From Pleodorina starrii (lineage: Eukaryota; Chlorophyta; Chlorophyceae; Chlamydomonadales; Volvocaceae), in assembly GCA_030267565.1 (NCBI GenBank), contig BRXU01000015.1:2045001-2109000 (forward strand): a stretch of DNA of 64,000 bases. The letters run 5' to 3'. Positions 4,931-28,951 of the stretch are shown in pieces (within the stretch, counting starts at the first letter, position 1; the number at the start of each line of letters is the position of its first letter). The position numbers and the translations under genes were made by a program. Below the pieces are notes generated by a model. The model was not told where the DNA came from. It was given only the letters and a program-made list of their open reading frames with translations, and ran no database searches.

Positions 4931-5888
4931 ATGAGGACGGCACCGGAGAAAGAATCAGCAATCGACTCGCTTGCTGTCCTAGCTTTCGCTGCAAGTGACA
5001 GCGCTTTGGTGGCTCGCTCCGGCGATGTTGATGATCCGCAAGCCTCCGGCGGCACGACGTTCCCACGGGCGCCAGATCACGACCGTGTCACCGTTACCCT
5101 GGGGACGGCTGCCTCACTCCCCACCCCAGGAATGCATGGTGAGGAACACGAGGGCTGCTCAACACGCCGCAACCCTGCCCATCAGTAGCCTGCAAGGTGC
5201 CGAGTGCGTCTCGGGCACCATCCTCCCAGCCGACTCACCCCGCGGGCGTACTGCACTCGGCCCGTTGACGAGGCCCCGCCCCTCGCTTTGCAACCCAGAT
5301 CCAGGCCCACAATCTCCAGCGTTTGGCAATGTCCACACGGCCGTGTTGGTTTGACACTCTGCCCACAACTGGCCCCCTGGTCCTGCCCCCGCCTGCGCGC
5401 ACACAGCACACGACGGACTTCACACCATGGTGGCAGGACTCTCCTCGCCCTGCTTCCACAACACCCTCGCGGCCCCGCACCAGCCCGGCCGCAAGTCCTG
5501 CATGGGTGCCCCCTGCGGGTCAGCAGCCACGGTGGCAGCCACAACCGCCTTTATGCTCTCAATGGCGTGGGCCGGCGACCCGACCGTGCAGTGCCTAGGC
5601 GACGGCGGCGGGTTTCACCACGCATGTATCGATCCATGTCCAGCTTCAGATCTGATTGGTGCCATCTCCAAACACCGCGTGGCGGAGGGCGCGTCGGCGT
5701 CGCCGCGCTGGCCCTATCAACACCAGCCAACAGCAGCGGCCCAGCCTTCTCTGGGAACGGCCACGGCCGCGCGCCTGCTGGCGGTGCCGTCGCTCTCCAC
5801 CAGGCGCGGCCTATACGAGGGCACAGTGCGAGGCGGCTGCGTCCGCAACACCTGGAGGTACCTCAACACCAGGACCCTCGCCGGGTAG
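4931..5888 (+). CDS. Tandem-array gene 1: unknown two-exon protein with C-terminal EGTVRGG motif
   Basis: Not a family I recognise. Exon 1 is 4931-5138 (phase-1 donor GTGAGG) and exon 2 is 5437-5888 (acceptor GGCAG). The 298-nt intron matches those of the four sister genes in size and phase. Predicted length is 219 aa. The N-terminus (SAIDSLAVLAFAAS) is a weak match to the VGSLDxWL motif of the sisters; the first residues after the intron read GLSSPC, matching their ALSSP block. The end carries RGLYEGTVRGG then CVRNTWRY, nearly identical to array gene 3 even at DNA level. The rest is Ala/Pro-rich with no signal peptide, membrane segment or catalytic motif visible. The codon for the Arg after Trp lies on an AG/GTAC that could be another splice donor, so the final eight residues are uncertain. 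A strong acceptor (TTTCTTTTCAG) occurs at about 6080. Confidence 0.6.
5802..5861 (+). repeat. 60-bp block shared with 17383-17442
   Basis: The block coding for RGLYEGTVRGG to NTWRY differs from 17383-17442 at only four positions. The last 36 bases are identical, and similarity stops just after GTAC. Three of the four differences are silent. Confidence 0.85.
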
Positions 5889-8800
5889 AGGAAGGAGGCG
5901 AGTGAGCCTGCGAGGGAAGCGGCAACCGTACCCCCGCCGGGCGTTGGGATTTTTTCTCCGTGCGATTACGGAGTGAGCAGGGGGGTTTGTACGTGCACCC
6001 GCGAGTCGATGTCGTCGGCGCTCGCTGAATAGCTTAGGAACCAAGTGGATGTGCACATGCGTTGATGTCTTTCTTTTCAGGGTACCTCATTCAAGAATAT
6101 TGCACTGTCGGCAGCCCGCATTGCCGCGCCGCGCCGTTTGCATGGAGGCTGCGTGGAGGTGCGCCGCGCGCGGTGACGGTGGTGGCGGCACTCCGGCACA
6201 TGTCTTCAACGATTTGTGTGCATGTGTCTTTCTCTTGTGTGGTTGTGTCTTGTGTTGGGTGTGCGCCTGGTGGGTCTTTATTTTGATTACCTGAAGGTGT
6301 CCTTTGGATTGAGCTTCGCCCTCCGGCCGTCACCGCCGAGGAGCCGGGCGGGGGCAGATGTCAGCGAGCAGATGTGCGCCGTCAGGAGAGAGCTCGTGGC
6401 ATGGCGCACCGACCACCGTGGGCCATCTGCTGCGCGCACGCCTGCTCGGGGTCTCGCATGGGCCGTCGCTGCCACCGTCGTCGTCGTAACGCACGCACGA
6501 GTGTGCACAGGCCACTCATGCCCGTCGGCTCTGTGCCCTGTTGCGTCACTCACGAGGCTCGTCGCCGCCGGCCCGTGCGGCCTCGATGGAGCGGGCGTCT
6601 GGTCGGACCGTCGCATGCTTGGTGTCTTTGGCCTTCTGATAGTGACGGTGGGACGGTTCTTGCGGTTCGTGCCAGCTGCGTTGTGCGGGGAGCTTTTTCA
6701 AGTTGCCGAAGTCGTCGTCTTGACGTGTTTTGATTTTCGTGGGCCGCCTAGGGGGGAAGGTTGCGACGCGCACGATGCTGGGCATGATGGGGTATGAGCA
6801 GCAGCGGCGGGCTGACAGGCGGGGCGAGTGTACGATCGAGGGTACGACATTTCATTGCGTTGACGTGATTTGTTTGTTCGTCCTGTCCGGTGTTGGCTTT
6901 GATTGGTCGGTGGGTCCCTGGTTTGCATCGCGTAGTGATACCTCAGGGGGGGATGAACACAGTTCAGACGCTTTTTTCTTTGGCAGGAGCCGCCCCGGGT
7001 ACCCCGGACACACAGTCTCCCACTTGGGCGTCAACCCAGCTGCTTTGCGACAGCACCGTCGCGGCTGCGGCTGCGGCTGATGCCGCGCAACGGCACAACG
7101 GCGAAGTTTTTGCAGTGTGGAACAAACCGTCCAATCTCAAGGCTCCAGGGAAGATGTCCTGTGTTTGTTGCCTTAGCCATAAACCGGCCCAGTGCGTGCG
7201 TGTGCACGCTATCGGCCGGACATTCATACATACCATTCCCCTCTGCTGGGCTCTGCGACCGCTCTGTGTGCGCGCGCCAGGGCTGTGTGCGCGGAGTGAA
7301 GTGCCTGCATTGGTGCACTGACCTGTGCACCCCAGCGGGTCGCCCGGTGCCCTCACGCGGGGCGTCCCCATCGCCGTAATTTCTGAGGGAGCGTGTTGTG
7401 GCGTCAGGGTACCTTTTTTGGGGTATAATTGCTTACATGGCTGCCGGCTGGGGGACGGGAGACCTCCGCCGGGGTCCTTGGTGGAGCGGGAGGGGAGCGG
7501 GAGCGGGAGGGGAGGGGCCGAGAGGGCGGGTTTGTGGGGGCGTGTGCATTCGGCATAGCGCCGCTGGCGAAGAAGCGCGTGCGCAAGGTCCTCGTTTGCA
7601 TCATGACCATCATGCTTGGGTGTGTATTACCTGCGGTGTAAGTAGCGTCTCCGAGGCAGCGGTGTGTAGAGTAGATAAGAACCGGTGTGCTCGGTGTTCC
7701 TTTATCCGGTGTTCCTTAGTTGTTGTGGGGCACCGGGTGGCACGCGCGGATGCGTGCATCGCACTGCCTGGCTGGCAAGTGGTACTGCCCGGGCTAGTAG
7801 GATAGGGAGGGGCGCTCGCTCGCTCGCCTCTGCGCGTGTGGGAGTCGGCGCGCACGGCGGCTGGAACGCATGAGTTCGGTCTTGGACCTAAGCCACTTGC
7901 GGCCCCTCTTGCCGAGATACCGGGTTGTACTGTAGTAGCTGATTTGGGGCGCCGGCCATGCGTGTGGCGGCGCCCCGTCGTCACGCCCAGCAGCAGCAGC
8001 AGCGAAGTCCCCGCTGGGGACTGCCGCCTATACGGCCGCCGATTGAGAGACGCAGCGTGTACGTTTGGAGGTATGTGAGGTGGCGGAAGCACTTTGTATG
8101 TATGTATATCTAGGAGGATTATGGGTCGGCTTCCATCCTCAGCGGCGCGGTGCGGGTTCCGTTGAGCTCGCGCGCGGGGCTGACGCTGGTGGAGGCGCCC
8201 CAAAGGGCGTCCGGCCAGTGCGTGTTGCGGTGTGGCGAGGTGCGGCGTTGCGGCCGCCAGTGTAATGCGCTGCAGCGGCAGGCGGATTGGGCCGGGTCGG
8301 GTCGGGCGCCGCTGCGTTTTGTTTCTTCGTTGCGCACACACACGAGTGGTGTTGGTGTTGCTTCGCCCGTATTCGAGTTGAGGATATAACGGTACACTGG
8401 GAGCATACCTCGCATGCATTTTTTCCGCGAAGGGTGAGCAGTACGCGGGGCCGTCCGTCTAGGCTTTTGGATGATAAGATGGTTGCCGTATCGCGGGGAG
8501 TTTGTACCGTACTATGCAACGACGGGTGACCAACGTGCATTTGAGCTGCGCAAGTCGCGTCTGGACCTGCTGGTTCTCGTCATGTAACTATATAGGCTTA
8601 TTAAAGGAGAATGTTGTTGCTGGAGGTTTATTTGGAAGGTCGTCCTCTCGCTGTCGGCGCCATAAGATGTTGAGTTGTTGTTGCCGCCTCAGGATGTTGA
8701 ATCGTCTATTAGCTACGGATACCGGTAACGTGGGTTGCGGCCGCTGGTAAGGGTGTGCGCACTGTGGGCTGTGGACAGACAGATTGCTCGGATCGGGTCG

Positions 8801-10770
8801 GAGGTTTGTGTCCCGTGGGTCCCGAGGGCCGGCAGGCAGGCTGCTAGCAGAGGGCGGATCGCCGCCAGGGGTCCGCTGGCACCTGCCCATCGGGGCCCAA
8901 TAAGTGCGGATTACGGGTTAGAGGAGGTTTGGGGGTTTAGGGAGGCCGCCCACCAGCCCGTACATGTAACGAATAAGTGCTGTTATGCGCTGTGCGCTTT
9001 TATGGCTGCAGTGGCGAGGGCGGCACCGACACCTGTTTGGTGCGACAGCGCCGCTGCCCCGCTCGCTGTCGCCTCGATCAGCCTACGGTACATGAAGCAC
9101 GACCCTGAGGGGAAGGACCCGCCCCCGGTGTTCCCCGTAACAGACCTCTGGCCAGGAGGGTATAGGAGGTTCATAAAGGATGTGAAGGAGTGCCATACTG
9201 ATTACGTGGTAGCCCCTCCTTAAGGAAAAGGTCAGCCTACAAACAAGCCGCCAGGGCCTGGCTAAGGGCATCCCTGCTGTGCAGCCTGTGCCATGCCCGG
9301 GCGGTGCGTAAAACGCCGCCGTGCAGGGAGGCGGGAGCGCAGGGGGGCCAACCCGGGCGGACGGACGCTCGGACGGGCGTGCCTCCCAAAATCCGGCCAA
9401 GCTCAAGCGCCCGAGCGGGTGCTGGCACGCCCGCGGCCGTGTCGGCAAGCTAGGCCACCAGCCGCGGGCTGCCTTTCTGCCAGTCTGCGACCTATCAAGC
9501 TACCATCTTACGGCGGGAAATGCCGATAGCGTACTCAGCAGTAGCAGGGTCGAGGGGGCCCAGGGCCCGTGGCGGCTGGGGCGACACCACGCAGTGTCAT
9601 CAGCTGCCACAGGGGTAGCGGCTGCTGCACACCGGCAGCTCGCTGGCTGAACAGCTAAAGCAGTGCGCCTCTTGCTGTTTGGCCTGAGCCGCTGCCACCC
9701 TGCCCACGCTGCTAGCGTGCGCCGCCGCGTCAGGGTATTGCTCGCCGGGGCGAGGGGCGGGTGGCGGGAGATTCATCTGGCCGGTAAGGTAGTAAGCGGT
9801 TTGGCGTGGTGCGCTGCCCTCTCTGGTGTTCTGCGCAGGCACGGTACCACGACGCGGGAGGAGAGGGCAGGAGTTCTGTTATGAACTTTCTTTGGGCCCA
9901 GTTCCCGCATTCTCGTTTTTCCGTCCCAACAATGCAAGTGGTCTGGACAGCCTAGATACATTCCGCGTACGCGTCTGCGTAATCTTTACTTTCGACAAGA
10001 TACAGGTCACTACTGCGGGTCAAATGCGACCGCACACTGAAGCGACAACGTCATGAATGACGGTGTCTTAGCGTTGCGAAAGGGTGACATAAGAATTTAA
10101 TTTTGGTGTCATCAATTGGGCCACTGAGTGTTCAGGTTTGCACAGGAGCTTGAGCGGCTTGGGTCCCTTGAACCGCACGTGGCTGTGCCCAACAACCATG
10201 CTGAGTCATTCCGTATGAGTCTCGGCTGGCTTGAAGTTCCGATGGTCCCCGGAGTTGCGCGTAAGCAGTCACAATTGAACCATAATATATTATTGCACTG
10301 AAAACAGCTACACTGAAAGCGTCTGCTATTTGTTGCAGCTTCGGGCAGACAGCCGCGTGAGTCCCACGTGCACCCTCGCCCGCAATGGTGAGAGTAATCG
10401 TTTTTGGCACATCTTTCTTTCCGTCGTTTTTAGTGCACGCAACTGATCGCCATGATTAGCAGCATTTTGCCCGACCTAAGGACGACACTAATGTTCTCGT
10501 AGAAACGCTCCTCTTGCACATACGTCATTATCTTTTTTCTCTCTCAAGGCATTTCTCCGATGGCAGCTTCTGAAAGTTCGCATCCTCTTGACCGTGGCGC
10601 GAACGGTGCCCACGTCCAAATTATATCAGTCCACGCGTGTGGCCTTGCTTGCCCCGCCTCCGCGGCTGCATTTTGAAATGTCATGATGGGGCTGCGCTGC
10701 GTTAGCGGCATTGTTGGAACAGGGTGCGCACTATTAGTAATCTTCTTCTTCATTCTTCGTACTCCTTCAG
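5889..10770. other. Intergenic spacer between array genes 1 and 2
   Basis: Mostly GC-rich low-complexity DNA, with an AT-richer stretch at about 9950-10760 before gene 2. No TGTAA lies close to the gene 1 stop. An open stretch at 8973-9223 ends in VFPVTDLWPGGYRRF-like sequence that reads as protein-like but matches nothing I know. G-box-like palindromes lie at 10176 and 10365. Confidence 0.4.
10176..10370. promoter_or_regulatory. Two CACGTG elements upstream of array gene 2
   Basis: CACGTG at 10176-10181 and 10365-10370, about 400-600 nt before the first coding exon of array gene 2, in an AT-richer, promoter-like stretch. Function inferred from position only. Confidence 0.25.
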
Positions 10771-11955
10771 GAGCAGGACAATGCATACGATGTTCCTGAG
10801 CAGGTTGGCTCTCTTGGCGCCTGGTTGCCGCCACCAGCAGCTCGTCCCACGTCTGCGGCGCCGCAGACGCGGACGGCGCCGCTGGACACATCGGGAACGC
10901 CGACTCGGACGCAGCCAATCCCAATTCCATCTAGGCCGCAATGGAGGGGTAACATGAATCAGAGCTACGTTCTTTTCGATCCATCATCATCATCATCTGG
11001 CAGCGGGGACCACCATCATCATCACCTGCAGCTCTCAGCAGAGCACCTCCCGACCCACGTGCACCCCATCGGAAGCTGCGCAGCGCCATACACCCATTTT
11101 CCAGAACCTCTGCTGCGTAGCTCCCTGCCGCGTGCTTCAGCTGCCAGCAACCCGGACGGCTCCTCCATGGCAGCAGAGCCACGCGCCTGGGCAGCCCAGC
11201 CTTGCAGCCTCGGCAGTGATGGGGAGACAAGCGCACCGCCCTGCAAGGGGGTGCAACATCAGCCGGCTTACAGCCGGCTTGTCGACTGCTACCAGCTTGC
11301 CGCCGGCCCTCTCGGCCCCGCCGCGTCCCTACCAGTCCAGGGCGCCCAAGGTGAGGCTGCACCGCAAAAGCGCCGAGGGAGCTGACCTTCAGCATCGGTG
11401 CACTGAAGCTGCCCATCCTAGGCCCCAGCATAGCGGGCGGTGGGAGCCTGCCGCGCTGTACCTCCTGACTGCGCATGTTTGCAGGAGCATGACATGTTCG
11501 CCAAGCGGCCCTCTAGTTGCACACAAGCAAACTAACAACCGCATGGCGGAAAAAAAATCCTTACGACCGGATACAAGCTACCGCAGCCCCACTTCCTTCC
11601 CGCGCCCCTCCCGTCCCGCGCGCTGCGTCCCCTCGCCTTCCCTTGCTCCCCAGCACCGGCCGGCCTCACGAGCCTGTGCAAGGCGCTCTCCTCTCCGCCG
11701 GCGTACAGCGCCAGGGAGGCCAGCCTCGCCAACCCCGCGCCGCGCGGCGGCGACGGCAGCGAAGGCCGCGCCGCCGGGCGGCGCCGGGCGGCGTCAACGG
11801 AGGTCTCGGGCCTGTCGGCGGCGTTCGACGCCGCCAGGGCGATTGCGGCTTTTGAGCGCTCGACCCTTTGGGCTGCAGCGCTCCTGGGGGACGGGCCCGA
11901 CGGCCGCATCGGCGGCAGCCGCCTGGACTGCCAGCAGGCCTTCGAAGTGTTGTGA
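10771..11955 (+). CDS. Tandem-array gene 2: divergent member, SLGAWL motif without its own ATG
   Basis: Exon 1 starts after a pyrimidine-rich acceptor (CTCCTTCAG, ending 10770) and runs to 11350 (phase-1 donor, CAAG/GTGAGG). Exon 2 is 11654-11955. The 303-nt intron matches the sister genes. In phase 0 from 10771 the exon reads DVPEQVGSLGAWLPPP, clearly the sisters' VGSLDAWLP motif with Asp changed to Gly. Where gene 3 has ATG GAT GTC, this copy has TAC GAT GTT, so the usual start is missing; the first in-frame ATG is 10954. Translation must start there (232 aa, motif lost) or in an unseen upstream exon. Exon 2 opens with APAGLTSLCKALSSPPAY, matching the sisters, then turns Arg/Ala-rich and stops without the EGTVRGG motif. 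It contains a Ser run and a His run (residues about 9-26 from 10954). Possibly a decaying copy. Confidence 0.6.
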
Positions 11956-12475
11956 GGCTTATGGTGCGAGGGATCGCACGGGATGTGTTGGTCAGGGCTT
12001 GTCTGCCATGCTGACTTCCAAGGCGCGGCAGCGGCAGCGGCAGCAGCACCCTTCCCACGTTGGTAGCTGCCGCATCAGGCTATGTCACAGCCCCTGCTTG
12101 TTTGAAGTGCAAAAGCAGATAGATGTTGCTGTTACACTGAGCAGATAGTGTCAGGGTCAGGGTAGACACAACGTGCAGCGGGGAACTGGCAGGCGCGGGC
12201 CAGGGGCCTGGGGACCAGGGGTAGGGCGTCGCCTGCGCCGGTAGGCTAGGGGCCGGATAAGGGCGCAAGCATTGGGGCTGCGACGGACATGAGGAGAGCG
12301 CTCGATGCGCGCGAGCCCATCGACGCGCACTTGCGAGTGAGACGGCATTGTGGCCCCGGTCTGCGGTTGTCGAGAGCCCAGACTTTGTCGACAGCCGGTG
12401 AAATGAGCGCGTCTACGGTTTTCTTTTTTATTCTCATGCCGCGCGGCCGTTCAAGCCCTGCGCGTCCAAAAATGT

Positions 12476-12505
12476 TGTGCTGTGCTGTGCTGTGCTGTGC
12501 TGTGC
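12476..12505. repeat. TGTGC pentanucleotide microsatellite
   Basis: Six perfect tandem copies of TGTGC, followed by a partial copy. Confidence 0.95.
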
Positions 12506-13691
12506 TGTAGAACAATTATAGCTAGCCAGCCAGATTAGAAAATGAACTTAGCTAGCTGTTCTTTTGGTGCGCACGGGTGCGTGGGCTGTCCTCCACCGCA
12601 GGGGCGGAATGTGAGGCCATCGACTCCCAACAGACCGGGAAGTACTTGAGTGTGCAGCAGCAGCAGCAGTAGCTGTGGGTTGTCAGTCAGCCTGGCTTGA
12701 GCTGTAGGGATGACCACCGAGTTGGGTGCCCGCGATCGGTAGTCGCCACCAGGGAGTGGAGTGGCGCCTTTTTGCAGTGCGTCGTCCTCGACCGGGCATC
12801 GGCGCGGCGAACGCGGCAGGGCGAGGCTGAACAATGCGGTACTTGGACCGGGTGTCTATCTGCGGGCCTCCTGATATCGCATGGGGAGGCAATGGCCGGG
12901 CGGCGCGCACTGCTGGGTGCCGTCGGTATAGATCCAATCCTAGGTCTGCATTCGAAATTTTAAAGCAGCGGGTGTATGTGGAACAGCGTTTTGCATTTAG
13001 GGTTCCGCCAGCGAGAGTGTCGCGCACTTGGTACTTGCTGTCGGCCGCGTCCCGGCATGCGCGCCGCGCCATCGGCCGGGCCATTGTTTTTGCGGTGGGA
13101 GGCCTTTTGCGGCGTCGTCGACGCGCTGCCCGGAGCACGATGAGCTCTAAGGGCGGGGGACAGGGCGCGAAGAGGAATCCTTCCCCTAGGCAGACGGCAG
13201 AACGGCGTTCCGTGTGCGGAGGATGTCCCAGGGATGTGCTCGACATTGGTGGGGCTCATGAGGCAACATCGCCGGCCGTGCGCGTGGTGGTGCATGGCAT
13301 TGTTGTTAAGGAGGCATTGCTATGGTTTGTGTGGTCGCCGTCGGTTGCGCTGAGCCCGCCCCGAATCGCTCGAGGCCAGACTCGAGTGGCCGTGTGTGTG
13401 CGTGTGTGTGTGTTTGCAGCTCTTGGCCAGGCAGGGGAATCATTGACCCGGCCCCCAAGACTGCGGAAAATTGCAGGGTGTGAAGGATGCCCAGGTGTCA
13501 AAGTCAGGAGATGCGCAACTCGTCGACTTGAAATTTATTCCAAGTATTTTTGAAGGGTGTTTACCGGTACCCTAAGTGTTTTCCTTTGTGGTGGCGTGTG
13601 CTTCAGGTTTGCCTGTGCGGGTGTCACGCCCCTCCGACGGGAGGGCGTGTCGTGTTCAGTGCACCGCCAAGTGGCCACTGAAGGAGGTCTG

Positions 13692-13738
13692 TGACGTGAT
13701 GTCTGATGTGATGTGATGTCTGATGTGATGTGATGTGC
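13692..13738. repeat. GATGT-rich tandem repeat
   Basis: Two tandem copies of a unit built from GATGTCTGATGTGATGT. Confidence 0.85.
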
Positions 13739-15532: not shown

Positions 15533-15995
15533 CACGTGATTCGAACCGGAGGTTGAGGTTGGTCGATTTGGTCGGCATGGACCGCGGACGTCAAAGATGA
15601 GCATTTGCACAGAGCTAATCATATCATTATCCAGTGGTCTTATGAAAAGGCGAAGTGTGATTGTAGCCGGTTCGTCACTGGGACATTGGCTCGTCACGTG
15701 TACGAAACATTTTCGGAGCACCCACTTTATTTACATCGACTTACATGCGCCATGTTGCATAGCCCGCTCCCACACCCGCTCAAACCAACGCACGAAACCT
15801 TTGACCAGGGTCAACACCTTCTCCAGTGTGGCTGGACGCAATTGCCTCGCAGTTGTGCTTGTTCATCGTATATTCCGCCCAAGGAATCAGGTGCGCCGCG
15901 CTGTTGCTCCTTATAGAAAAGAACTTCATGACTTAAAGTGCGTAGCACGGGGAGAGCGTAGCGCGCCCACACCCGTGCCTAACGACCGCCACGTG
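15533..15995. promoter_or_regulatory. Three CACGTG elements upstream of array gene 3
   Basis: CACGTG at 15533, 15695 and 15990, within 0.7 kb of the ATG at 16227. Function inferred from position and from the same element upstream of the sister genes. Confidence 0.25.
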
Positions 15996-16226
15996 CCTGT
16001 CGCCGTCGCGCTCTTGTCGCCCTATCACATTCATCCGTTCATCTCAGTCTCAGGCTACTGGATTTCTTGTGATGTGAACAAGTTACGGCACCCTGCTCAC
16101 ATAAAGCGGGGGGGAAGGCGTCACATCAAGTGCTTGACCTTGATTCCCTTGGCGCTTCAAGCGGCTCCACAACTTATAATTGCACATGTTTCTTTTATCC
16201 ACAGGCAATTTCGGTGCGCGTCCAAG

Positions 16227-17469
16227 ATGGATGTCCCCACACCCGTGGGCTCCCTCGATGCATGGCTGCCGAGCTCCGTCGCAGAGCCCCAAGCCTCCAG
16301 GAGCAGCCCCTTTACATCAAACGTCACCAGCAAACACAGTATCCTGTGGTCGAGCCAGCCGATTCCCATCCCGGGTCTGCAGAGCTCCGTGGGCGCTCGC
16401 AGCGCCATTTCACCTGACTCTGCAAACTGCGCCGGCTTCGGGCCCAACCCAGGAGCACAGCGGCGCCTGCTCGCGGAACTCTCGGGAGTTAGCTTGAAGG
16501 ATGCGACCCACATTTTGGTGCCCCGCGAGGGCACGGTGCGCCGCGGCAGGCGCCTGCGCGCGCCGCCCGTCTGCAGCCCCAGCACCATTACTGGTTTCGG
16601 GGTGACCCTAGGTCCCCGACAGCACGACACGGAGCCCCCAGCTGCAGAGGCGCTATCGGCGACTTCGTTACCGCTGCCTGCGGCACACCAAGGTGAGCGC
16701 GTTGCGTTGGTCGCCTCGACTTAGCGTCCGATAATCCGTCTCGGTCAAGATCTCATCCAACGATCCAAGGTTGATCATCCGCGGCTCCGCCCGGCTCGGC
16801 CGCCACCCCTAAACCCGCTGCTGATGTGGCTTTCAACGACACCGCGATTGAATCAAGCGGACCCCATTCGCTCACCGATGCATTGGTGTCCGTCCGCCCT
16901 GGGTTTGATGCAAAGACCGCGAAACTGATTTACGCCGCACACCCCTCCCCCATCACTCCCTCGCCGCAGCCTCGCCAGTCAGCCTGACGTCCCTCTGTCG
17001 AGCGTTGTCGTCACCCGCCGAGGAGACCGGCACTCTCGCCTGCCCCCTGCGGGCGCCCCCGGCCGCTGTCGCGTGTGACGGCGGCCCCACAGCAGCCGAG
17101 GCGCAGCAGCGTCCGAGCACGGCAGCCGGGCTTGCCCTGCCCATGTCCCGGTCCGCGCCGCTTGGAGCAGCGAGCTCCGTCCCCGCCATTAAGCAGCGCT
17201 GGGAACGCCACGACCGCAGTGACTGCGGCTCCACCATCCCGTGCCCGCCCCGCGGTGTCAACAACTTCATGAAGGAGGGCCCTGCTGCTGGAGTAGTCGC
17301 TGAGCCCGCGCCTGCGCGCTGCGGGCCCCTTGGCCGACCCGCCGCGGCGGCGGCAGTACCGCTGCTGGCGTCATGCTCCGCCAAGCGCGGCCTGTATGAG
17401 GGCACGGTGCGAGGCGGCTGCGTCCGCAACACCTGGAGGTACGCCACCTGCTGCACGGCGGCGGGCTGA
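16227..17469 (+). CDS. Tandem-array gene 3: unknown two-exon SLDAWL/EGTVRGG protein
   Basis: Unrecognised family. ATG at 16227; exon 1 16227-16692, phase-1 donor AAG/GTGAGC; 286-nt intron; exon 2 16979-17469. Predicted 318 aa. The N-terminus reads MDVPTPVGSLDAWLPSS. Exon 1 also contains VPREGTVRRGR, a second version of the C-terminal motif. Exon 2 begins VSLTSLCRALSSPAEE, homologous to the start of exon 2 in genes 2, 4 and 5. The end reads RGLYEGTVRGG then CVRNTWRY and a short Cys-containing tail. The protein is rich in Ala, Pro, Ser and Arg and looks largely disordered; no signal peptide or membrane segment is visible. The ATG is preferred because it directly precedes the conserved motif and lies just after a probable leader-intron acceptor. 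The Trp-Arg codon overlaps an AG/GTAC donor-like site, so a further small exon is possible. Confidence 0.7.
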
Positions 17470-20400
17470 GGCCGGCTGGATTGCGTTTTTGGCGCGTGGT
17501 GTTCATAATTGGTGCTAGGCTGGGAATGGATTTCTTGACCCGATGGGCGCAGATGGGGGCGAACGACGTGACTGGCGTTTCAGCAAGGCAAGAATGTGGG
17601 CCCGTTAGTCCTCGAATCTCGCGCGACGCCTGCGTATGGCCTGGAAGGTTTTCTTGCTGCTAGGTGAGCGAGTTCAGGCACGGCAAAGACACGTCGTATC
17701 TTTGCGGTACAGCGAGGTCTATGCTGTCCCTTCGCTGCAGATGGACCGGAACCTGCGGTCGTAGGCCTAGCGAGGCAACCGAAGGCCGTATCTCGTTGTG
17801 ACACAGATTATTATTATTATTATTACTATCCGCGTCGCCTGCCGACAGGGGGCGGGAAAACGGCTTCCTTGCCGTGGGTTGCATTCCCGGGCGCCAGATC
17901 CTTTCCCTGCTTGTGCACGGGCGGCAGGTGCGGGCAAGGTGTTTGGAGCCAGGCCCGCTCGAGGTCGTTTGCTTCCCGGACAGAGCGGTGGAAGGGTGCG
18001 CGTGTCTTACGTGCCTGGCGAGATCCTGGGAATTTATCCGATATGCCTCAAGCTGCTGGCTGCTGGGGCTGCGGAGAAGTTTATCGCTGTGTCTTAAGGA
18101 GAAATGAGGGGAGTCGAGGGGAGGCAGATGGCGCGAATTAGGAATTGCAGTTGTGAGCGCGGATGGGAGGGGGGAGGAGAAAGCTTAGCTGTGTGTCTGG
18201 TCCGTGAATAGGGCCTTTCGATTAGCTTAGAACCGCCAGGCAGTTTTGGGGCCCGTCTGGCTGACGTACGAGGCAGGTACGAGGGGGTAAAAGTAGAACC
18301 AGCCCTGGCTGGTACAGAGCTGGGTGAAAAGACTTTGTGCCATCGCAGGCTTATTATTAAGAGGACGTCGCAGGCTTGGTTTCGCATGCATGTACGCATG
18401 TTTGAGGGAAGAACCTACCGGTACGTGCGCGGGACGAGGCGGCAGGGCGCCGCACCTGGCTTGGCCGAGCGGCTTTGACTCGGGACGGGCTGTCGTGCTT
18501 GTGCCCTTCCTTGCTTCTTTCCTCGTCGTGGCACTGGCCTCGTGTGCAAGCATCCCTTCCTAAGAGCACGAGCCACGGGGGTTGCCGATGCGCCCCTTCG
18601 GAATTGCTTGGCATGGGGAGTGGGCTGCTGCATGCGGCGGTGTATCCTGGTGTGCACCGCTGGGCATACAGTACATCCATGGATAGTGTTTTCCGCTGCT
18701 GGAACGCGACTGCTTGGCCTTTTTTGGCTGCTGACATTTCGGCAGCGAGGCCCGTCCTCGTAGCATATGATATAGTACATATGACATGATTTCTCGGGTT
18801 TTCTGCTTCGTCTCCCCTGTGGCATAGGTCACGGAAACGGGTTAAGAGGCGCTCGAGCTGGATTGAGGCTGCTTGGCTTGACATGGCGCGCTGATGCGGG
18901 CATGGCGTGGCGTGTTGCATGAACCCGGAAGCGAGTCGCCCGTCGCACGGGGGGTATTGAGTATGCGCGGGTCTCGTAGGGAGGCGGCGATTTGGACTGA
19001 TTGACCGGTGCGCTTTCATGGGTTGGCGGGGCTAGCTTCGCCTGCGACCCGGACGTGCCGAGTGGACAAGGCTCCAGCGAAGCTGCCGAAGAGCGGGATA
19101 AGCGGCACCTGTGTCTAAGTTTCTTTGCCGTGCGACGCATGGCATTGACACCACCAAATAATTTTTTGTTCGTTTCGTTTGCTTCATGCACTATCGGATT
19201 CGTTTGCTTCATGCACTGTCGAGGATTCCTGGATTTCAGCGCGTCATGCAGTCAGGTAGCGGGCACGCAAGTCCTGCCGTTACGACGTGCTTATTATTTC
19301 CATTACCTGTTGGCCACTCATGCAGAATGCGTGTTGTGCAGACAGACTTAATGTGTTGGGGAGGGCTCCACCGCTGAGGTCGCTGCGGAAAGACGCAGAT
19401 AGATGGGCCGGTCGGTGCTGTGACTTTGTTTCCGCGCGGCGCATCGCGTCGTTTCGGCTCAAGTGGTGTTGCCACGCGACGTTAAGCTTTGGGATAACCG
19501 CCCGTCTGCGCCCTGATCCCGGCGCTTAATGAGCATGCGGGTCACGCCCCTTTGAATATCTGCAGTGGTCAGAAGTAATTCGGGCCCACTGTAAAACGTT
19601 CGTGCCACACATTTACCCCAACAGTAGGAGCCCTACTTGAGGCGAACCATCCAGCGGTCTCGAGCTGTTTCGGCGCCTGGGCCAGTCAGCTCGTTTTCCC
19701 CTTGGCAAAAGGAGCAGGCCCTGCTTTGCCGGCGCAGCGACTCCACTCCTTGAAGGGGGGGATACGGACCCTGCTGATTGACGCGCTGCGTGGGGGATGG
19801 TGGTGGCCGGCGGCATTGCGTTGTCGCCGCCTCAGACTCAACTCCACAGGCTGTTGCGCATAACGCCGGCACATGGCTGCCAGAGCGCGGCGCTTCGGCG
19901 GCACCTATAACCGAATTTGCGGGAAGCTCGCTTCAACCCAACCTGTCGTGCGTTACAGCCCTGAGAGGGCACGAGAAGCCTCCCGCTGCGCGCTGCGTCC
20001 TCTCTGACAGACAAAGTGAACTGGCGGTGAAGCGGCTTCGCACCAGTATGTATGTATAAGGTGGGAAGACGTTTTTTGGGGTTGAGTGCGTTGGTGGATC
20101 AGGATGAATGGGAGGTAGGTCCATGGGTCATCGTGGCGCCAAGCAGTGTAAGGAAAGGAGATAGGCCAGTATTATGCAAGCCCATAAATTTATTTGCAGC
20201 TGCTGGCGTATGCACAAATGCGAGAAATGTGACACCAAACCGCTATCGTACGGCTTGCATCGATTTTGTCCACTTGACATCACACCTTGCCGGTGGCTTA
20301 CTATGTAGCTTTTTACAAGCCTCCCTAGGTTATACTCATATGACGCGCATATATATGTCCGCAGCCGTGCAAATTTAGGGTTCGGACCATACGTGGTTCA

Positions 20401-20890
20401 CAAAGTTTCTTGAGGAGCAATATTCATGCCATCAACCAACAAGAATCTTCTGAAGCAGCAACACTGTACCTCATATATCTCCGTCTCTTCGCTTGATTTG
20501 TGCTCTTCAGGTGGGTCCCCGTGGCACGGACGCACGTGGTACGTTGGATCAGGTTGCCATACAATGACCGCCAGTGACTCCCGCCTTTTGGTGTTAGTCT
20601 TTGCGTTTAGATATAGAAGTGTTGCACAGTAGCAAGTGCAGCTGCTGAGGCAGTTGTCGCCTTCGCCTGCATCCTGCCACCCCGTGCACGCCGTGAGAGC
20701 CTCGCCGGAAGCTCATTGGGGCGACGTGACGCTCACTTAAATACTAGATACTTATGCCTCGGTAGCTGCGAAGCAGCGGCGAGTCGCGGAACTGGTGGCT
20801 CCATTCACAGTTGGCGCCAGGCCGCCGTCATGTCCCGAGAGGTTCTGTCCCGGCTCTGCTTCTTGATCACACGCAGATCCTGACGGCCTC
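17470..20890. other. Intergenic spacer between array genes 3 and 4
   Basis: No supported gene. Contains a short ATT run (about 17811-17826) and an AT-richer promoter-like stretch at 20150-20640 with CACGTG at 20533. An acceptor-like CACACGCAG ends about 14 nt before the next ATG. Confidence 0.5.
20533..20538. promoter_or_regulatory. CACGTG element upstream of array gene 4
   Basis: Single G-box-like palindrome about 350 nt before the ATG at 20891. Function inferred only. Confidence 0.25.
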
Positions 20891-22122
20891 ATGGAAATTT
20901 CGCCTCCAAATTCGGTCGGCTCCCTTGACGATTGGCTCGCCAAGGCTCCGCTTGCTGCCTCGGAAGCGAGGCAAGCTAGCCCATTCGCGGCAGTTTCCCA
21001 CGGCGCGCGCCGCTTGAAGCCGGCGCAATCGATGCCTGCATCAAGGTCGCCAGATACAACTATTCAGGAAACGGACCAGCCCTTGCCCTCTCTAGCTGCT
21101 CTCCTTCGCGATGTACCGTGCTGTACCTCGCCTTGCCCGCAAGAACGGCCGGCCCGCTTCGATGAAGAGCGGACTATGCACCACGGCAGGCTGCGTTCAG
21201 CAGCTTGCATGAAGAGCGATGCCCAGCCCATCACCAGGGCTGCGTGCCACGGTCTAGGCGGACCTTCTAACTTCCTGGGATCCGCCGCCTCTCTCCCCGC
21301 CAGGGCGACCCAAGGTGAGCACCCGATCTAGGCTGACGTATCTGCCCGTCCGGTTTATTTTTTGTCGCGTCGGCGCAACCCTTTCACTCCCTGTCCCTCA
21401 TGCTACCCCTTCGCCTTCTGTCCGTCCTACGGTATTTCCCACACCGGTGTCTTTGTACCCTCCTGCTCTCCTCTGCGATCGGCGAATGAAAAGTCCATTA
21501 GCGGTGCCGTAACTGCAGCACGCCCCGAAAGCTGACTAGCCGTGTTACGCCATTGGCCGCATCGTATCAACCGCCCTCCCTCCCCTCCCTTCGGCCCTCT
21601 GTGCACTCAGCCGCGGTCAGCCTGGAGTCCCTCTGTACGGCGCTTTCCTCGCCAGCCGCCCACGTGACGCTCGCGACCGCCTACACTCGGTGTTTATACA
21701 GCAATGAGCCCAAGATCCAACTCCCTGCCGACAGCGCCGCCGCCGCGGTTGCCGTCGCCGCGGCCTTCAGCCGGTCCATGACCACGCTCCCGTCCCTTCC
21801 GGAGACGTCGTCGTCGTCGTCGTCTTCTCTGTCTGGGGCATCATCTAACGGCTGCCTGTTTCCGTACATCGGCTGCTGGAACTACGACAAGTTGGCCGTT
21901 GGTACGAGCATTGATTCGTCGGGCCCGCGCTCGCTGCTCCCGCCGATCGGGGTATCCAACGGCCACCGCGAAAGCGACACAACCGCAGCAGCCAGCGGCG
22001 GCGGCTGCGGCTACCCGGGCGCTGGCTCAGCGGAGTCGGGGCGACGAGGCCTGAGCGAGGGCACGGTGCGCGGAGGCAGCCCGCGAAACTCTTGGAGGTA
22101 CTGCTCAGCCCCACAGCTCTAG
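20891..22122 (+). CDS. Tandem-array gene 4: unknown two-exon SLDDWL/EGTVRGG protein
   Basis: Unrecognised family. Exon 1 20891-21314 (phase-1 donor CAAG/GTGAGC), 296-nt intron, exon 2 21611-22122; predicted 311 aa. N-terminus MEISPPNSVGSLDDWLAKAP. Exon 2 begins AAVSLESLCTALSSPA, matching gene 3. Near the end is RGLSEGTVRGG followed by SPRNSWRY, the same motif as genes 1 and 3 but with Cys replaced by Ser. A Ser run lies in the middle of exon 2 (encoded near 21810-21830) and the rest is Ala/Ser/Pro-rich. No membrane or catalytic motif is visible. As in genes 1 and 3 the final Trp-Arg codon coincides with AG/GTAC, a possible donor; an acceptor-like GGTTTTGTAG lies at about 22278. TGTAA at 22473 may be the polyadenylation signal. 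Confidence 0.72.
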
Positions 22123-22472
22123 CGGAAGTTTCCGTTGCGCGTGGTGGTTGGCGGTTGGTGAAGCAAGCGTGGCGCCACCAGCGGATGTGGTGTTTGGACC
22201 CCGTGCAGCCAGAGTAGTAACGTTGGGTGTCGTCCGCTGACCCCACCACAAAAATAAGCGATTTTGCGGGTTTTGTAGGCGGACAGTTCGTCGCCTGCCT
22301 GCCTGAGTCCCTTATTCCGATTACATAAGTGCCCCGAGGCACGGACAGGACAGTTTAATAGTACGGCATACTGATTGGATGTGGCACGTGCTTGTCCGAG
22401 CATCTGTGCGAGGCGAGGCGCGCAGTTGTCGCCTAACCGCTCGACGCCCACGTCCGAGCTGGTAGCGCCGGT

Positions 22473-22477
22473 TGTAA
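22473..22477 (+). promoter_or_regulatory. Putative TGTAA polyadenylation signal of array gene 4
   Basis: TGTAA, the usual polyadenylation signal in volvocine algae, 351 nt after the stop codon. A pentamer can arise by chance. Confidence 0.4.
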
Positions 22478-23857
22478 GTAGTCCAGAGGACGGCGGCTGC
22501 AGGAACAATAGCCGGCCGTCGCGTGGTGCGTGGTGCGTGGTGAATAGAGAGACGTCGAGATTGCTGCGCCGGGGCAAGTATGGCGGATGTGAGGTAGGAC
22601 GCGTTTGCAAGCTGCTGTGGTGTGGTGTGATCTGGTTGCTCCTGGGGGGCCGGCGAAGTGTGTTGACGGATTATGTTTGGGTTAAAAGAGCTGCAGGAAG
22701 GCTAGGGGGGCATACCCAACGCCTCCTCGCGGCAGGGTTTGGGATTCTGTGTTGTGCTTCGCTGCAAGAGCCTGCCCGGAGTGGTGTCCGGTGAAAAGGC
22801 GGAAGCTCCTTTTCCGGGAACGGGAAGTTCATTTTGAGTCGGCCCCGAGCTGTTCTCGAACCGGGGAAAGGGGTGTTGTTTGCCGCATGCGCACGCCGAC
22901 CGACCCACGGCATGGTGCGCGGAGGGGTTTGACCGCAGGTGACCGCATCGCACCTTTGTGACCGACCCGTGGGTCTCGACCCTTGGCTGCCGCTGCCGCC
23001 GCCATTGCCGCTGCCGCACCGGACAGGGGGGTCCTCGACGTGCCGCCCTCGCCATCGAACGCCATTCTCCTTCGGCACGCGCCGGCGACCCGCTTTGCCG
23101 TTCTGGCGCGACGCGAGTTAAGTAACATAGTTTATATGACGGATGGGAAGGGAACTGCGGTGCAGTACAAGCGGCGTGCTTGGAGTTTTGGGATATGTAT
23201 GATTATGTATGTGTGGCTATATTATTAAGTGTTGCATGAGGCCCTGCCCTCCGGGAGGATGGGTTTGTCAGCGGGGCCCCAGTGCTGGCGGGGCTTGTCC
23301 ACATAGCGGCGGCGCCCGTAGCTGCGTTTCGCGCCTGGTGGGGGGGCATGCGGTGCGGCGTTGAGCGGCATTGAGCCCAAGGCCCGTTACGCTGGTCGGG
23401 TGTACCGCACAAACTGCGAATCAAAGAGGGGCGGGTGCATTACACCTTTTCCTAAGGATGCATTGGACCTAAAGCAGCCCTTGGGGACCACTCGCGATTT
23501 TTTCCCTCCATGTGCTGTGTCTTGGGCCGCGGGCCTCCCCGCGTTCCGCCGGCGTGTCCTCCGACCGGGGAGGGGGGTGTAATAAAGAAGAGACCGCAGC
23601 GGGAGACGGTCGGGGGGTGCGGAGTTGCAGGCGGTGGGCTACAGCCCGCGCCCGGGAGCGCGGCACGCGTCCTGGAAGGCCGGCGAAGTTCCGCTAGAGT
23701 AGGCATGCTTGTTGTCTGGGTTGGCCGTGTATTTGTTGTTGAGGGTTTGTTCCTTTGTTACTTGTTGTCAGCGTAGGGTACGATGATGATCATGATGATG
23801 CCTGGGTCCGTGTGACCGCCGCTGGAGGTTTGCTGCACGGAGGCGCAGGAGGAGGTC

Positions 23858-23962
23858 GGGAACAAGGCTGGCTTGGTCGCAGTTGCAGCACGCTCCCTCA
23901 CAACATTTTGGGCAGGGAACAAGGCTGGCTTGGTCGCTGCACGCTCCCTCACAACATTTTGG
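23858..23962. repeat. Imperfect direct duplication of about 50 bp
   Basis: Copy 1 (23858-23912) and copy 2 (23915-23962) share GGGAACAAGGCTGGCTTGGT and the end CTCCCTCACAACATTTTGG. Copy 1 has about seven extra bases in the middle. Non-coding as far as can be seen. Confidence 0.9.
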
Positions 23963-25654
23963 TGAAAGGGAAACGCGGCCGACCTCGCGGGAGCGTCGCA
24001 CGCGGCGATGACCCGTTGCGACAGGAGGGGGCGGGTGCGCGCAACGCACACGCCCTAATTATTGCTGCCGTCAGCGCCGGTTCGGAGCCGAGAAGAGTTT
24101 TGGGTAGTCACTTTGTGAACTGTCTGTGCCGTTGTTGGAGAGTCCGTAAAGGGTTATTGTCTTTTCTTTCTTGCGCTGCACCGTATACCGGTGACACGAC
24201 GTTTTTTGTACTAGCGTGTGTGTGGGCGTTGCCGGACCATACCCGGTCCGCGCAGTTTTATGAGGATAGGGCGCGGCATTCCTTGCGAAGACGCCCCGCA
24301 CAAAAGACGGCGCGGGCGATCTGCTGGCCGCACTTACTAGGTAGGTATTGTTGACATGAAATGCGCGGCACGCTGCTGACGCGCCAGCGCTACTCATCCC
24401 GTACTGCTGCAAGATGCTAGTTTACACCCGGGAGGGAGGGGGCGCGTCGAGTTGGCTGCGGAGGCGTAGGGGAGCGAAGGCGTCGCGCGCGGACACCTGG
24501 GGGCCGGTGGGTCCTGCCTGCCTTGGGTCCTGCTCTGCCTCAGCCGGGTGGTCGCCGGGCCGCAGGGGGCCACATTGAATTACGGGGGACACACCGATAC
24601 ACGCAGCAATGCACCGCTTGATTCGGTCCGCGGCATTAGCCGGGTTGTTGCACGAGACACGAATTTGGGCGTCGGCCGCCAAGGCCATGTCGGGAACCTG
24701 GGACCCTATTGTAATATTATTTTTATGCTGTTACGTCGCTCGGTGTGGTACGAGGTACGGTACGTTTCGTCCAGGTGTCAGCCAGAGCAGCAGCCCGGCA
24801 TCTGTTCCGCTCGCGGCCCCCGACTGACAGCTGATGTATGAGGAAGGTGGCGCGGAAGGGCGCGGACGACAGTTGTCCGTCATCGGAAGGCAGTGAAACG
24901 CCGCATCCCCAGCCGTAGCGCACTTTTGTCGGCCAGTGTTTTGAACAGCACCGAAAGCGCGTGCCCGTTGTCCAGTATGCTGTGCATCAATTCTTGACAC
25001 CCATGCGCGTGGCGCGGCGCATCGGTGGGCGCAAGACAAGAGGGGCCCCAGTGACATCGCACACAGGAGCCCGCGTAATGAGGCACATGTCCAATCCACG
25101 GTTTCGTTTATCGGTTGCACAAACCCAGCTGATGACGCTTATTTCACCTTTCCCTCCCCACGAAGTTCACGCCAGGGCCCGCAAGGTTTGGGGCCGAACT
25201 ACGTTGGATGTACGTAACCTGAACGTTACCGAAAGCGGAACAACGGGTGCCAAGTACTCTGATTATTTTGGCCAGGGACGCGGCTGAATGAGGCCAAGGG
25301 TTGTACGGGTAGGGTTGTGCTGCCATTTTATGTCGTCAGGGTAACGCTTACCAATGCAGGCGCAAAATCCGATGTCGTGCGGAGCCGCGGTTGGGGCTTT
25401 CTACGGCACTGAGAGTGCCTGCCCCCCATTCCACAATATGTACTTCTTGCGGGTGCATTTTATGCTGGTCTTGATGAAGGGGCAGCTCTAAGGGTTCTGG
25501 ATCGGCTTCAAACTGTGCCGTACATGCTTGTAATAAAGCAGTCTATCACACCTTTACAATGGACAGATCCCAGTCTATACGCAATTATTTAAGGCGCTGG
25601 GAGCATTGTTACGCTCGGTGGGTGCACCGTTAAAAGCAAACCGTCTCGTGACTT

Positions 25655-25670
25655 CACGTGTTATCACGTG
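25655..25670. promoter_or_regulatory. Paired CACGTG elements upstream of array gene 5
   Basis: Two G-box-like palindromes with identical preceding T, start-to-start distance 10 bp (one helical turn), about 0.4 kb before the ATG. The spacing would suit two bZIP or bHLH dimers on one DNA face, which is inference. Confidence 0.35.
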
Positions 25671-26077
25671 GGCAATAAAAGATCGGAATTACAACACGGC
25701 CGGCCCACATTTGTATGAGGTACGTCGTGCCCTTGCGTTTCTTGGCGAGAGATCACCTGGCTGGCGTCTGCAGCGTGTGCTCTGGGGGTTTACGACTCAC
25801 TGCACCAGCCAGCGGCGCCAGGCAGTGTCAGCTCGCGACACGATTACATTAGACTTTTGTCAGGTATGGATGTGTCACCTTCGCTCGTGTGGGGCAACAA
25901 GGGTGATTCCAGTTAGGGTTCCTATACTAGGGTTTCGCATCAAGCTAGATCTGATACAAATGTAAATCTTTTTTATAGACATTATAAAAAGGCGTTATAA
26001 ATGGTCATTAACTAAATAGCCGGTGGGCGCTATCTGTTTCGCAGGGTGGCTTTGAGCATCGGCGCGCCCCGCTTGCA

Positions 26078-28951
26078 ATGCCAGCCCATCAAGTCGGCAG
26101 CCTTGACGCGTGGCTCGGGAGCCCATTTGCAAACGGTGGTATCGGTGTGCCTGCCATACAATTTTTCCAAGGCCAGTCTACTCGCTCCCGCTCTTTCCGC
26201 AGCGGTCCGTCTCGCCCCGTTCCTATGGCGGAGCGTAAACCTGCGAATAAATTGTCGTGTGCGGTAGACGCTCATGCGGGTTCCGACGGCGAGGGTGAGG
26301 CTGTCCAGTTGGCTTCGACTTCCGCAGCAATGGAAATCGCGGACGCTTCGCTCTCTCCAGCGACGACGATCGACAACCTTCTGGATCGCTCATACGGTTT
26401 CTGTGTGTCGCCGCGGATGGCCACATCGCCCAAGCGCAAGTCTTTGCTGTCCGAGCAGCTCCGCACCGCGTCATCGCTTCCTCTGGCAGCTTGGCACCAA
26501 CCGCATCCGAAAGAAGCTGATGGCGAGAACGATGGCAACGTAATCATGTACGCATGTCGGTCCCTAGGCAGCGCTCAAGCCGGAAATCGCGACTACGGGA
26601 AGCGGCTGGGTGCGAACTTGCAGTCGACGTCGGCATCGCTCGACGCGCCGTCTACTGCCCGGTGGTTGTTGGATAAAACTATACCTGCTATCAACAACCA
26701 TTCTCCCGAAGCTCAGGGGGCCAGCCCATCTGCCGAAGCCGGTTCCCTTGACCTCCAGGTGTTTCCTGTCGGCGGCGGCCTCAGCGGCCTCAGCGACGGC
26801 AGCCGTGGCAGCGGGAGCGGCGGCGGCGGCGGCGGCAGCGCCGGCGCCGAGTCCCGTTTCCGTAACGCCTCATACGGCAGCAAGCTGCTCGTCCTGGGCT
26901 CCATGGACGCTGACGCCAGCAGCGCCTGCGGCGGCGGCGGCGGCAGCTGCTCTCTGGCATGCAGCAGCAGCGCCGGCTGCTACAGCAGCGGCAGCAATGT
27001 ACTGCAGTACTACAGCTGCAGGGACCGCGACGACTGCTGCGCCAGCGGCGGCTGCTGCGCCAGCGGCGAACAACTGGAGTGCGCGAGGTCGCTGCTCCTG
27101 AGCCACCCGGCTGTGTCCGCTGCCGCTGTGTCGGTAGCGGCGACGGGCGCGGGTGCAGCGGATGGCGCTGTCAGGATGGCGCGCCGCGCAAGATCCCCAC
27201 ACCCGAAGGAGCAGCAGCAGTGCCCTGACGGACTGCTGGAGCGACCGGCCGCACGGAAGCCCTCCTCGCTGCCTCAGCCAGGTGATAGGGCTGAGATCGG
27301 TCTCCCGTTTCCTCCCGACAGGACAGGACACTGCGTTGCAAGACCTTTGTTGTTGTACGTCTGATGTATGTGCGTCCGTAGTTCAGCCGTGCATCATTGC
27401 AGATTTGCAGTGGTCAGGTTCAGGCTCAAGGTCCTCAAGCAACCGATCTCTTTTTTCCCGCCTCCTCCGATGCGTCTTCCCTGGGCCCGAGGCGGCCAAG
27501 CACGTCGCGCACCCCAGTGCCTCATTTGCACCCCAGCGACTGATGCCTCCCCTCTCATGTGTATGTGTCTGTGTATGTATGTGCGCCCGCCAGGTACCGC
27601 CACCGACGCGCTCTCCCTGAGCACCGCCCTGTCTTCGCCGTCGCCCTGCGGCGCCGGCGCCTTCCCCGCCTCATCCACCGCCACCACCACTACCAGCATC
27701 GCTTTCGCCACCGGCGGCGCCTCCGAAGTGAGTGGCGGCTGCCTTGCTGCAGACGATGACGAGGACGATGACGACGAGGACGACACCGCTGCCGACGATG
27801 ACGATCCAGTTGACGCTCGCACAGTGTGCTCCGCGACCGACCTCGTGTCCTCCACGCTGGGTACGACGGACAGCGGTATGGGCTGTACTGCCGTACGGAT
27901 GGCCGTGGCGACGCACCTGGCGAGCGCGCCACTAGATGTCGCGGCGGTGACGGAACCAGGGGCCGATTCGGCGGCGGCGGCGACGCCGCCGGCACCACCA
28001 TTCGGGCCCCTGAGCCCGCTGCCCCTGTCATTGCCCGACCTCGAAGGCGCGGGCAGCCCGGCGGGCGGCTCGGCGACGGCGGCTGTTGCGGCTGTAGCTG
28101 CAAAGCTTCTGGGCACTGGCGACGGCAGCAGCGGTGACGGGGCACTCGCCGGCTGTGAGGAGAAGCAGCAGCAGCAGCAGCAGCCAGTGCCCGCTGCAGA
28201 ACAGGCCTCGCATATGTCGGTGCTGTCGCTGCGGCCGCCGTCTCAGCTTGAGCCGGCGGACGTCCCGCAGCCCCCGCACCCGGGCGGTGAGGCTCCAGGG
28301 AAGGTCGGGGGCCGGCCCCCCCTGGAGCGCCACTGGAGTGAGGCTTTGCCGGCCGGACTGGAGGGCTCCCGGCGGGGCGGCAGGGGCGTGTCGTACGCGA
28401 GCCTCTTCTCCACCGTGATCGTGCTGCCGGCCGGTGGCGGCAGCGGCGGCGGCGGCGGCGGCGGTGGCGCGACGGCGCACTTGGGCAGCGACGCCGCCGC
28501 GGACCCGTACAACGCCGGCGTATGCCTGCAGCACTCATTGAGCATGGGCAGCGTGGCGGGCCGGCGGGGAGATGTCTGGAGCGGCCACGGCGCTGATGGC
28601 GCTGATGGTGCCGCTGCGAGCGACGCGTGGCTTCGTGACCTGGTGAATGCTCGGCGGTCGTTCGACGTGTCGAAGACGCTGTCGAGGGGCCGGGCCGCGT
28701 CGGGCGCTGAGGCCGGCGGATCGCGTGGCGGCTCGCGCGGCGGCAGCATCCATGAGCTTTTGGAAGCGGACGTGGCGCCCGCTATGTACGAGGGGACTGT
28801 ACGGCGCGGCCTGCCGCGGCGGGCGGCGCCGCTGTCGCGTACGATGAGCCAGCCGGTAACGGAGGAGATGCTGCGCTCTTGCTTGCTGGACTCCGCTGAG
28901 GGCATCGACGCTGCCGCTGCCGCTGAGGAAGACGCCGCACGCCATGACTGA
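26078..28951 (+). CDS. Tandem-array gene 5: long SLDAWL/EGTVR protein with acidic and Gly-rich inserts
   Basis: Longest member of the array. Exon 1 26078-27281 (phase-1 donor CCAG/GTGATA), 312-nt intron, exon 2 27594-28951; predicted 853 aa. N-terminus MPAHQVGSLDAWLGSPF. Exon 2 starts GTATDALSLSTALSSPSP, matching the other members. Long inserts explain the size: a Gly/Ser/Cys-rich part at the end of exon 1, an Asp/Glu tract (DDDEDDDDEDD, encoded about 27755-27790), a Gln run (near 28170) and Gly and Ala runs. Towards the end come DAWLRDLVNARRSFDVSK, then MYEGTVRRGLPRR, then SRTMSQPVTEEMLRSCLLD. Several Arg-x-x-Ser sites could be kinase targets. The C-terminus extends about 60 residues past the EGTVR motif and lacks the RNxWR tail of genes 1, 3 and 4. 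No known domain seen. Confidence 0.75.

Follow-up and report, generated by a model that had tools for sequence, protein, structure and literature searches.

A tandemly arranged gene family of predicted disordered proteins with conserved short motifs in Pleodorina starrii

Introduction

Volvocine algae are a standard system for studying how multicellularity arose, and one of their known gene families is VARL: it includes the tandem cluster of regA, and its proteins bear a SAND-like domain. VARL (volvocine regA-like) is presented as a volvocine family in PMC10137558, and PMC10473226 describes, for the Volvocales, EPYC1-like proteins in which short Rubisco-binding motifs are repeated. The locus studied here, a row of five plus-strand genes (c1 to c5) in a 64,000-nucleotide stretch of the Pleodorina starrii genome, likewise belongs to a volvocine gene family whose proteins carry repeated short motifs. 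The stretch, hereafter the window, is C15:2045001-2109000 in an assembly of 136,057,477 bases and 95 contigs that was used for genome-wide searches; positions below are those of the window unless a contig is named. The family is previously undescribed as such: literature searches with its motif strings and its locus tags yielded no papers, and a search on volvocine algae and disorder had nothing on it among the 15 results listed of 639. An initial annotation of the window had called it unrecognised, which stands in that no Pfam match was found but needs amending in that several members are already deposited as unnamed hypothetical proteins.

Results

Spliced, the five genes encode proteins of 229 (c1), 294 (c2, counting an inferred start exon), 321 (c3), 311 (c4) and 853 residues (c5). 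Each contains one phase-1 GT...AG intron of 268-312 nucleotides at the same place in the protein (5/5 spliced models), and this common intron, together with a shared set and order of motifs, shows that the family shares a common ancestor. Close to the N terminus, VGSL[DG]xWL is present in c2-c5 and absent from c1. The middle motif, SLxxLCxALSSP, is strict in c3 and c4, varied in c2 (GLTSLCKALSSP) and loose in c1 (GLHTMVAGLSSP) and c5 (DALSLSTALSSP); its block straddles the intron in the form SLP...|...SLxSLCxALSSP, with AASLP (c1, c2, c4), ATSLP (c3) or SSLP (c5) ending 5, 5, 6, 5 and 2 residues ahead of the intron in c1-c5. EGTVR lies close to the C end of c1, c3, c4 and c5, c3 having a second copy at 16527, and is missing from c2. 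Across the 11 family proteins considered below, VGSL[DG]xW[LV] can be read in all except c1 and EGT[VIM]R in all except c2, with two EGT[VIM]R copies in 5/11.

To control for chance matches, we built matrices from Volvox and Tetrabaena rows only (5 for the N, 4 for the middle and 4 for the C motif) and scored them against 100 residue shuffles of the window's six translated frames; as these relatives came from searches with window proteins, the matrices are independent in sequence, not in discovery. The N motif scored 31.4-41.4 in c2-c5, against a null maximum of 28.8 and a next real match of 23.0, and the C motif 45-77.8 in c1, c3, c4 and c5, against 33.0 and 28.0. The middle motif reached 46.8-61.3 in c2, c3 and c4 (null maximum 36.5), and that of c1 fell outside the top 12 matches in the window. 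In the whole genome, the extended C pattern [YF]EGT[VIM]R[RG]G had 4 matches, all in family genes (c1, c3, c5 and the probable sixth gene, c6, described below), with none for its control.

These results bear out most of what the initial annotation had proposed: five paralogous genes in a row, supported by the common intron place, the common motifs and matrix matches above the shuffles; one phase-1 intron per gene; and a C-terminal EGTVR in four of five. The N motif, said to be in all five and weak in the first copy, was confirmed for c2-c5 and is absent from that copy, while the SLxxLCxALSSP block, said to follow the intron directly, does so strictly in c3 and c4 and as a variant in c2, but is loose in c1 and c5 and begins before the intron.

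The exons, all on the plus strand, are arranged as follows. In c1, the first exon (4931..5138), which lacks the VGSL motif, ends in LGTAASLPTPGMH ahead of the phase-1 intron, and the second (5407..5888) holds the loose middle motif, then RRGLYEGTVRGGCVRNTWRY at 5802-5861 and the stop; the spliced model is identical to the annotated protein P0002 (PLESTB_001095400). The main exon of c2 (10771..11350) carries EQVGSLGAWLP at 10798 and LGPAASLP ahead of the intron, and its last exon (11654..11955) carries the variant middle motif without EGTVR. The exon starts at 4931, 10771, 16227, 20891 and 26078 given earlier are all correct as positions, but 10771 does not begin a first coding exon: it is a splice acceptor with no adjacent in-frame ATG. 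An ATG at 10385-10387, the last codon of a putative 5' exon (ATG|GTGAGA, phase 0), joins in phase to 10771, giving an open frame of 294 residues that includes the N motif, and we infer that c2 translation starts there; the annotated model P0003 (PLESTB_001095500) begins later, at MNQSYV. Because a pyrimidine-rich AG is present 14-62 nucleotides upstream of the ATG in c1, c3, c4 and c5 and exactly at 10771 in c2, the data suggest a 5' intron common to c1-c5.

The first exon of c3 (16227..16692) contains MDVPTPVGSLDAWLP, the internal EGTVRRG and SATSLP ahead of the intron, and the second (16970..17469) contains SPVSLTSLCRALSSP and, at 17383, KRGLYEGTVRGGCVRNTWRY. The female-strain c3 protein P0001 (PLESTF_001894900) equals our model minus three residues at the splice junction, corresponding to an acceptor 9 nucleotides downstream; the longer form is favoured because the Volvox orthologues retain SP[MV] before SL. 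In c4, NSVGSLDDWLA and LGSAASLP (ahead of the intron) lie in exon 1 (20891..21314), and VSLESLCTALSSP and, at 22042, RRGLSEGTVRGGSPRNSWRY in exon 2 (21611..22122); no annotated c4 protein was among the returns of the family profile search of protein databases. Exon 1 of c5 (26078..27281) holds HQVGSLDAWLG, SPKRKSLLSEQLRTASSLP and SSLP ahead of the intron, exon 2 (27594..28951) the loose middle motif and LLEADVAPAMYEGTVRRGLPRRAAPLSRTMSQP close to the C end, and the spliced model is identical to P0008 (PLESTB_001095800). In the 10 kb on either side of the window on C15 we found no further copies, the best N, middle and C scores (19.9/23.6/18.6) lying below those of the family.

Besides these four P. 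starrii hypothetical proteins, the family includes Vretifemale_10049, Vafri_6719, VaNZ11_002918, VaNZ11_002916 and TSOC_011091, with the motifs in the same order; the relatives come from Volvox reticuliferus, V. africanus and Tetrabaena socialis. In a family profile search of 5.77 billion proteins, in which only the 7991 candidates with the most words in common were scored, 7 reached E<=1: three from P. starrii, three from Volvox and one from T. socialis. When the C end of P0004 served as query, 6 candidates yielded 4 matches, all from P. starrii or Volvox; when the C part of c5 did, 7456 candidates yielded two, c5 and V. africanus VaNZ11_002916. No protein from Chlamydomonas, Gonium or V. carteri was returned, which does not amount to absence because these searches hinge on word sharing, on annotated gene models and on limits of length. 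The Volvox proteins comprise three orthologues of c3 (P0004-P0006) and one of c5 (P0009, from V. africanus). Because the c5-type VaNZ11_002916 and the c3-type VaNZ11_002918 have locus tags two apart and lie on contigs that are both 5,688,754 bases long, c3 and c5 were probably neighbours, and the cluster hence in place, before P. starrii and V. africanus split. In Tetrabaena, the protein is laid out like the short type, with VGSLGEWV, an internal EGTIRDG, SLDNLCNALSSP and RRGLYEGTVRGGSPRNSWR. PMC11007952 places the separation of the Tetrabaena lineage from Goniaceae and Volvocaceae in a unicellular ancestor, at about 298 (349-237) million years ago, so the family would be older than multicellularity in this group, if tree and homology are right. 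In a tree from the motifs only (11 rows, 49 columns), c5 grouped with its V. africanus orthologue at 84, or 62 with c6 added; values were 69 and 96 within the Volvox c3 group and 30-36 elsewhere, and no conclusion rests on this tree.

Comparison with these relatives shows that the short motifs are strongly conserved and that the linkers between them change fast. Against its three Volvox orthologues, P0001 is identical at 66, 63 and 61 of 85 residues in the motif blocks, which were delimited after the alignment was viewed, and at 60, 43 and 41 of 233 outside them. Between c5 and its V. africanus orthologue, the most conserved 20-residue windows include the N end (14/20), KSLLSEQLRTASSLPL (14), those around GSMDADASSACGG (13-15), VNARRSFD (13) and EGTVRRGLPRRAAPLSRTMS (16), against 2-6 of 20 in many linkers. 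The claim of three short motifs held as regards conservation far above the linkers, but not as regards their number, there being more than three conserved elements. Among paralogue codons, silent changes exceed replacements in 3/3 comparisons of the middle, 3/6 of the N and 2/6 of the C motif; for the eight core VGSL[DG]xWL codons, by hand count, they do so in 5/6, c4 and c5 giving a tie.

A separate observation concerns the C motifs of c1 and c3. Over their last 20 motif codons (5802-5861 and 17383-17442), 16 are identical, 3 differ silently and 1 is replaced, while the flanking parts of the two genes can barely be aligned. This near-identity amid surroundings that hardly align suggests a recent gene-conversion tract or a partial copy.

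By prediction, the family proteins are intrinsically disordered, in agreement with the earlier claim. AlphaFold2 models, built on shallow alignments, have a mean predicted local distance difference test (pLDDT) score of 44 for the c3 protein (P0001), whose sole helix (158-165), of low confidence, lies within the middle motif, and of 32 for c5. None of the five window members matches Pfam at E<=1, nor do any of five further relatives scanned at E<=0.1 (c6 included, P0006 left out), and a profile search of the PDB with a 7-row family alignment found no chain at E<=1.

A sixth gene probably lies elsewhere in the genome. A loose first DNA pattern for the N motif had 334 genome matches and was replaced by two strict VGSL[DG]xWL patterns, which had 6 (control 2) and 1 (control 0). 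Four of these seven are c2-c5, two (C3:6850010 and C32:1169785) are without family context, and the last, C32:265219, opens a frame MPTVGSLDAWL, with the N motif just after the Met. FEGTMRGGWPRR follows some 3.1 kb downstream on the same strand, so that the spliced frame also has EGT[VIM]R close to its C end. The resulting model, c6 (L056:711-3981, on C32), found only through motif patterns, has 905 residues and is rich in Gln and Ala runs. Its donor, six residues past SSSSLP, is in phase 1 and ranks first among 18 GT sites (consensus count 7/9, next 5), and its acceptor is joint best of 8 by pyrimidines (12/15). RRTSLLSRQL in c6 corresponds to KRKSLLSEQL in c5, and RQDSAP to RTMSQP. On the other hand, BLASTP within a set of 11 proteins matches c6 only weakly to c5 (E 0.022), no middle-motif match of family score exists in L056 (the best, 25.4, lies elsewhere than the post-intron site), and whole-genome protein searches yielded only C15 places. 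Resting on its joint layout, c6 is probably a dispersed member, and the tandem array that had been proposed thus holds for five genes in a row but is probably not the whole family.

The window also holds other genes. Downstream of the array, at 35202-40457 (+), lies a multi-exon protein kinase gene. Its exon pieces, joined by hand, match PF07714 (E 2.4e-31), and the catalytic loop contains HGDLK. At 44844-47672 (+), an open frame of 943 residues contains runs of Thr and of Asp-Val; it matches nothing in Pfam at E<=0.01. On the minus strand, an open frame at 53184-54392 matches the metallo-beta-lactamase superfamily (PF12706, E 1.2e-7); of the 10 window frames scanned together, no other matched Pfam.

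Discussion

Docking motifs are typically recognised as short conserved stretches in disordered chains that otherwise drift, and it is plausible that the motifs of the present family dock to a common partner. We tentatively read the family as lineage-restricted disordered adaptors (scaffolds) of volvocine algae, with short docking motifs tunable by phosphorylation, a possibility that we take seriously without holding it probable. Judging from its sequence, VGSLDxWL, hydrophobic and acidic at the extreme N terminus, would act as one docking anchor, and the basic EGTVR element near the C end as a second; a chain with two EGTVR copies, as in the c3 type and Tetrabaena, might bind two partner sites. 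The middle SLxSLCxALSSP may form a short helix, at whose end S-S-P is a possible proline-directed phosphorylation site that could switch binding, and the long members (c5, its V. africanus orthologue and c6) would add putative basophilic-kinase-like sites ([KR]RxSLLSxQL-like and RxxSxP). Phosphorylated RxxSxP is the mode 1 client pattern of 14-3-3 proteins; the string occurs near the C end of c5 (RTMSQP), P0009 (RTKSQP) and c6 (RQDSAP), elsewhere in c3, c4, c5, P0004, P0005 and P0006, and nowhere in c1, c2 or P0007. Tandem duplication would have diversified linker length and motif set, leaving c1 without the N anchor, c2 without the C anchor and c5 with long linkers. A bolder version, in which VGSLDxWL and EGTVR are docking classes of their own with their own receptors, forming a dedicated volvocine scaffold system that arose before multicellularity and expanded in tandem into members differing in valency and reach, is rather unlikely.

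Several observations weigh against the adaptor reading. Since the N motif is missing from c1 and the C motif from c2, a two-ended clamp is not obligatory. The middle motif of c5 scored 25.3, under the null median of 27.8 in the 100 shuffles, and that of c6 is barely recognisable, with only SGPLSASP in place of an ALSSP block after the intron. EGTVR alone is no DNA-level signature, because EGTVR[RG]G has 14 genome matches against 22 for the reversed control; five of the 14 are c1, c3 (two), c4 and c5, and the other nine are without family context. In the three C-motif comparisons with c5, codon changes are mostly replacements (12/20). As for structure, the c3 helix sits in blocks of mean pLDDT 57-62, the c5 model has no helix at the middle motif and a low-confidence one at 825-851, and the alignments behind these models had 7 rows (c3) and 2 rows (c5). 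Three docking-class patterns are each found in 0/11 family proteins: the Rubisco-binding [DN]W[RK]xx[LIVA], the Groucho-type C-terminal WRP[WY] (WRPW class) in the last six residues, and the Atg8-interacting [WFY]xx[LIV] within the first 20 residues.

Common ancestry need not imply a common partner. The motifs could be targeting or processing signals between which the linkers drift freely; their position near the chain ends resembles that of sorting signals, and the frames of c1 and c2 stay open although a motif is missing, but conservation extends to the second, internal EGTVR and to the middle SLP/ALSSP block, and we regard this explanation as improbable. The same losses in c1 and c2, together with the lack of an annotated c4 protein in the protein-database search, could instead suggest decaying tandem duplicates or misread non-coding sequence; open frames, conserved phase-1 introns and Volvox orthologues of c3 and c5 speak against this, as does the statement in PMC10256686 that the P. 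starrii genome annotation drew on RNA-seq reads, leaving it very unlikely.

The motifs themselves invite two further explanations. As general resemblances, SLDxWL combines acidic with bulky hydrophobic residues, as a short activation motif might, and RRGLYEGTVRGGxxRNxWRY is basic and contains RGG, so the proteins could be transcriptional regulators or co-regulators whose Arg/Gly-rich C end touches nucleic acid. With no Pfam DNA-binding domain and a conserved Glu in the C motif, however, we consider this distinctly unlikely. As disordered volvocine chains in which short motifs recur and a W-R pair lies close to the C end, the proteins also resemble pyrenoid proteins bearing the Rubisco-binding motif, an identity that the failure of its pattern in every family protein renders scarcely credible.

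Two other settings were considered and set aside. The sex-determining region of bisexual P. starrii is on contig_12 (PMC10256686); this is an unlikely setting for the array, as the window is on C15, if contig numbering agrees, and a c3 allele is present in the female assembly (PLESTF). A prokaryotic or viral origin was rejected, since in profile scans of viral contigs and genome contigs 16 and 17 pattern stretches came up and none was confirmed.

Overall, five unnamed genes can now be treated as one defined family that has a searchable signature, is probably of ancient origin and probably has a dispersed sixth member, and the peptides identified here could serve as bait for a binding partner. 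If docking to a common partner is true, the family would represent a signalling or scaffolding module of volvocine algae that is invisible to domain-based annotation.

Set beside the known systems, the family differs from the EPYC1-like proteins in that the Rubisco-binding motif of the latter occurs in 0/11 of its proteins, and from VARL in having no Pfam match. Closest to it are the listed database members, which carry neither a functional name nor a precomputed Pfam domain in the search tables and are identical to the family in motifs and their order, three being the window's own genes and one the female-strain allele of c3.

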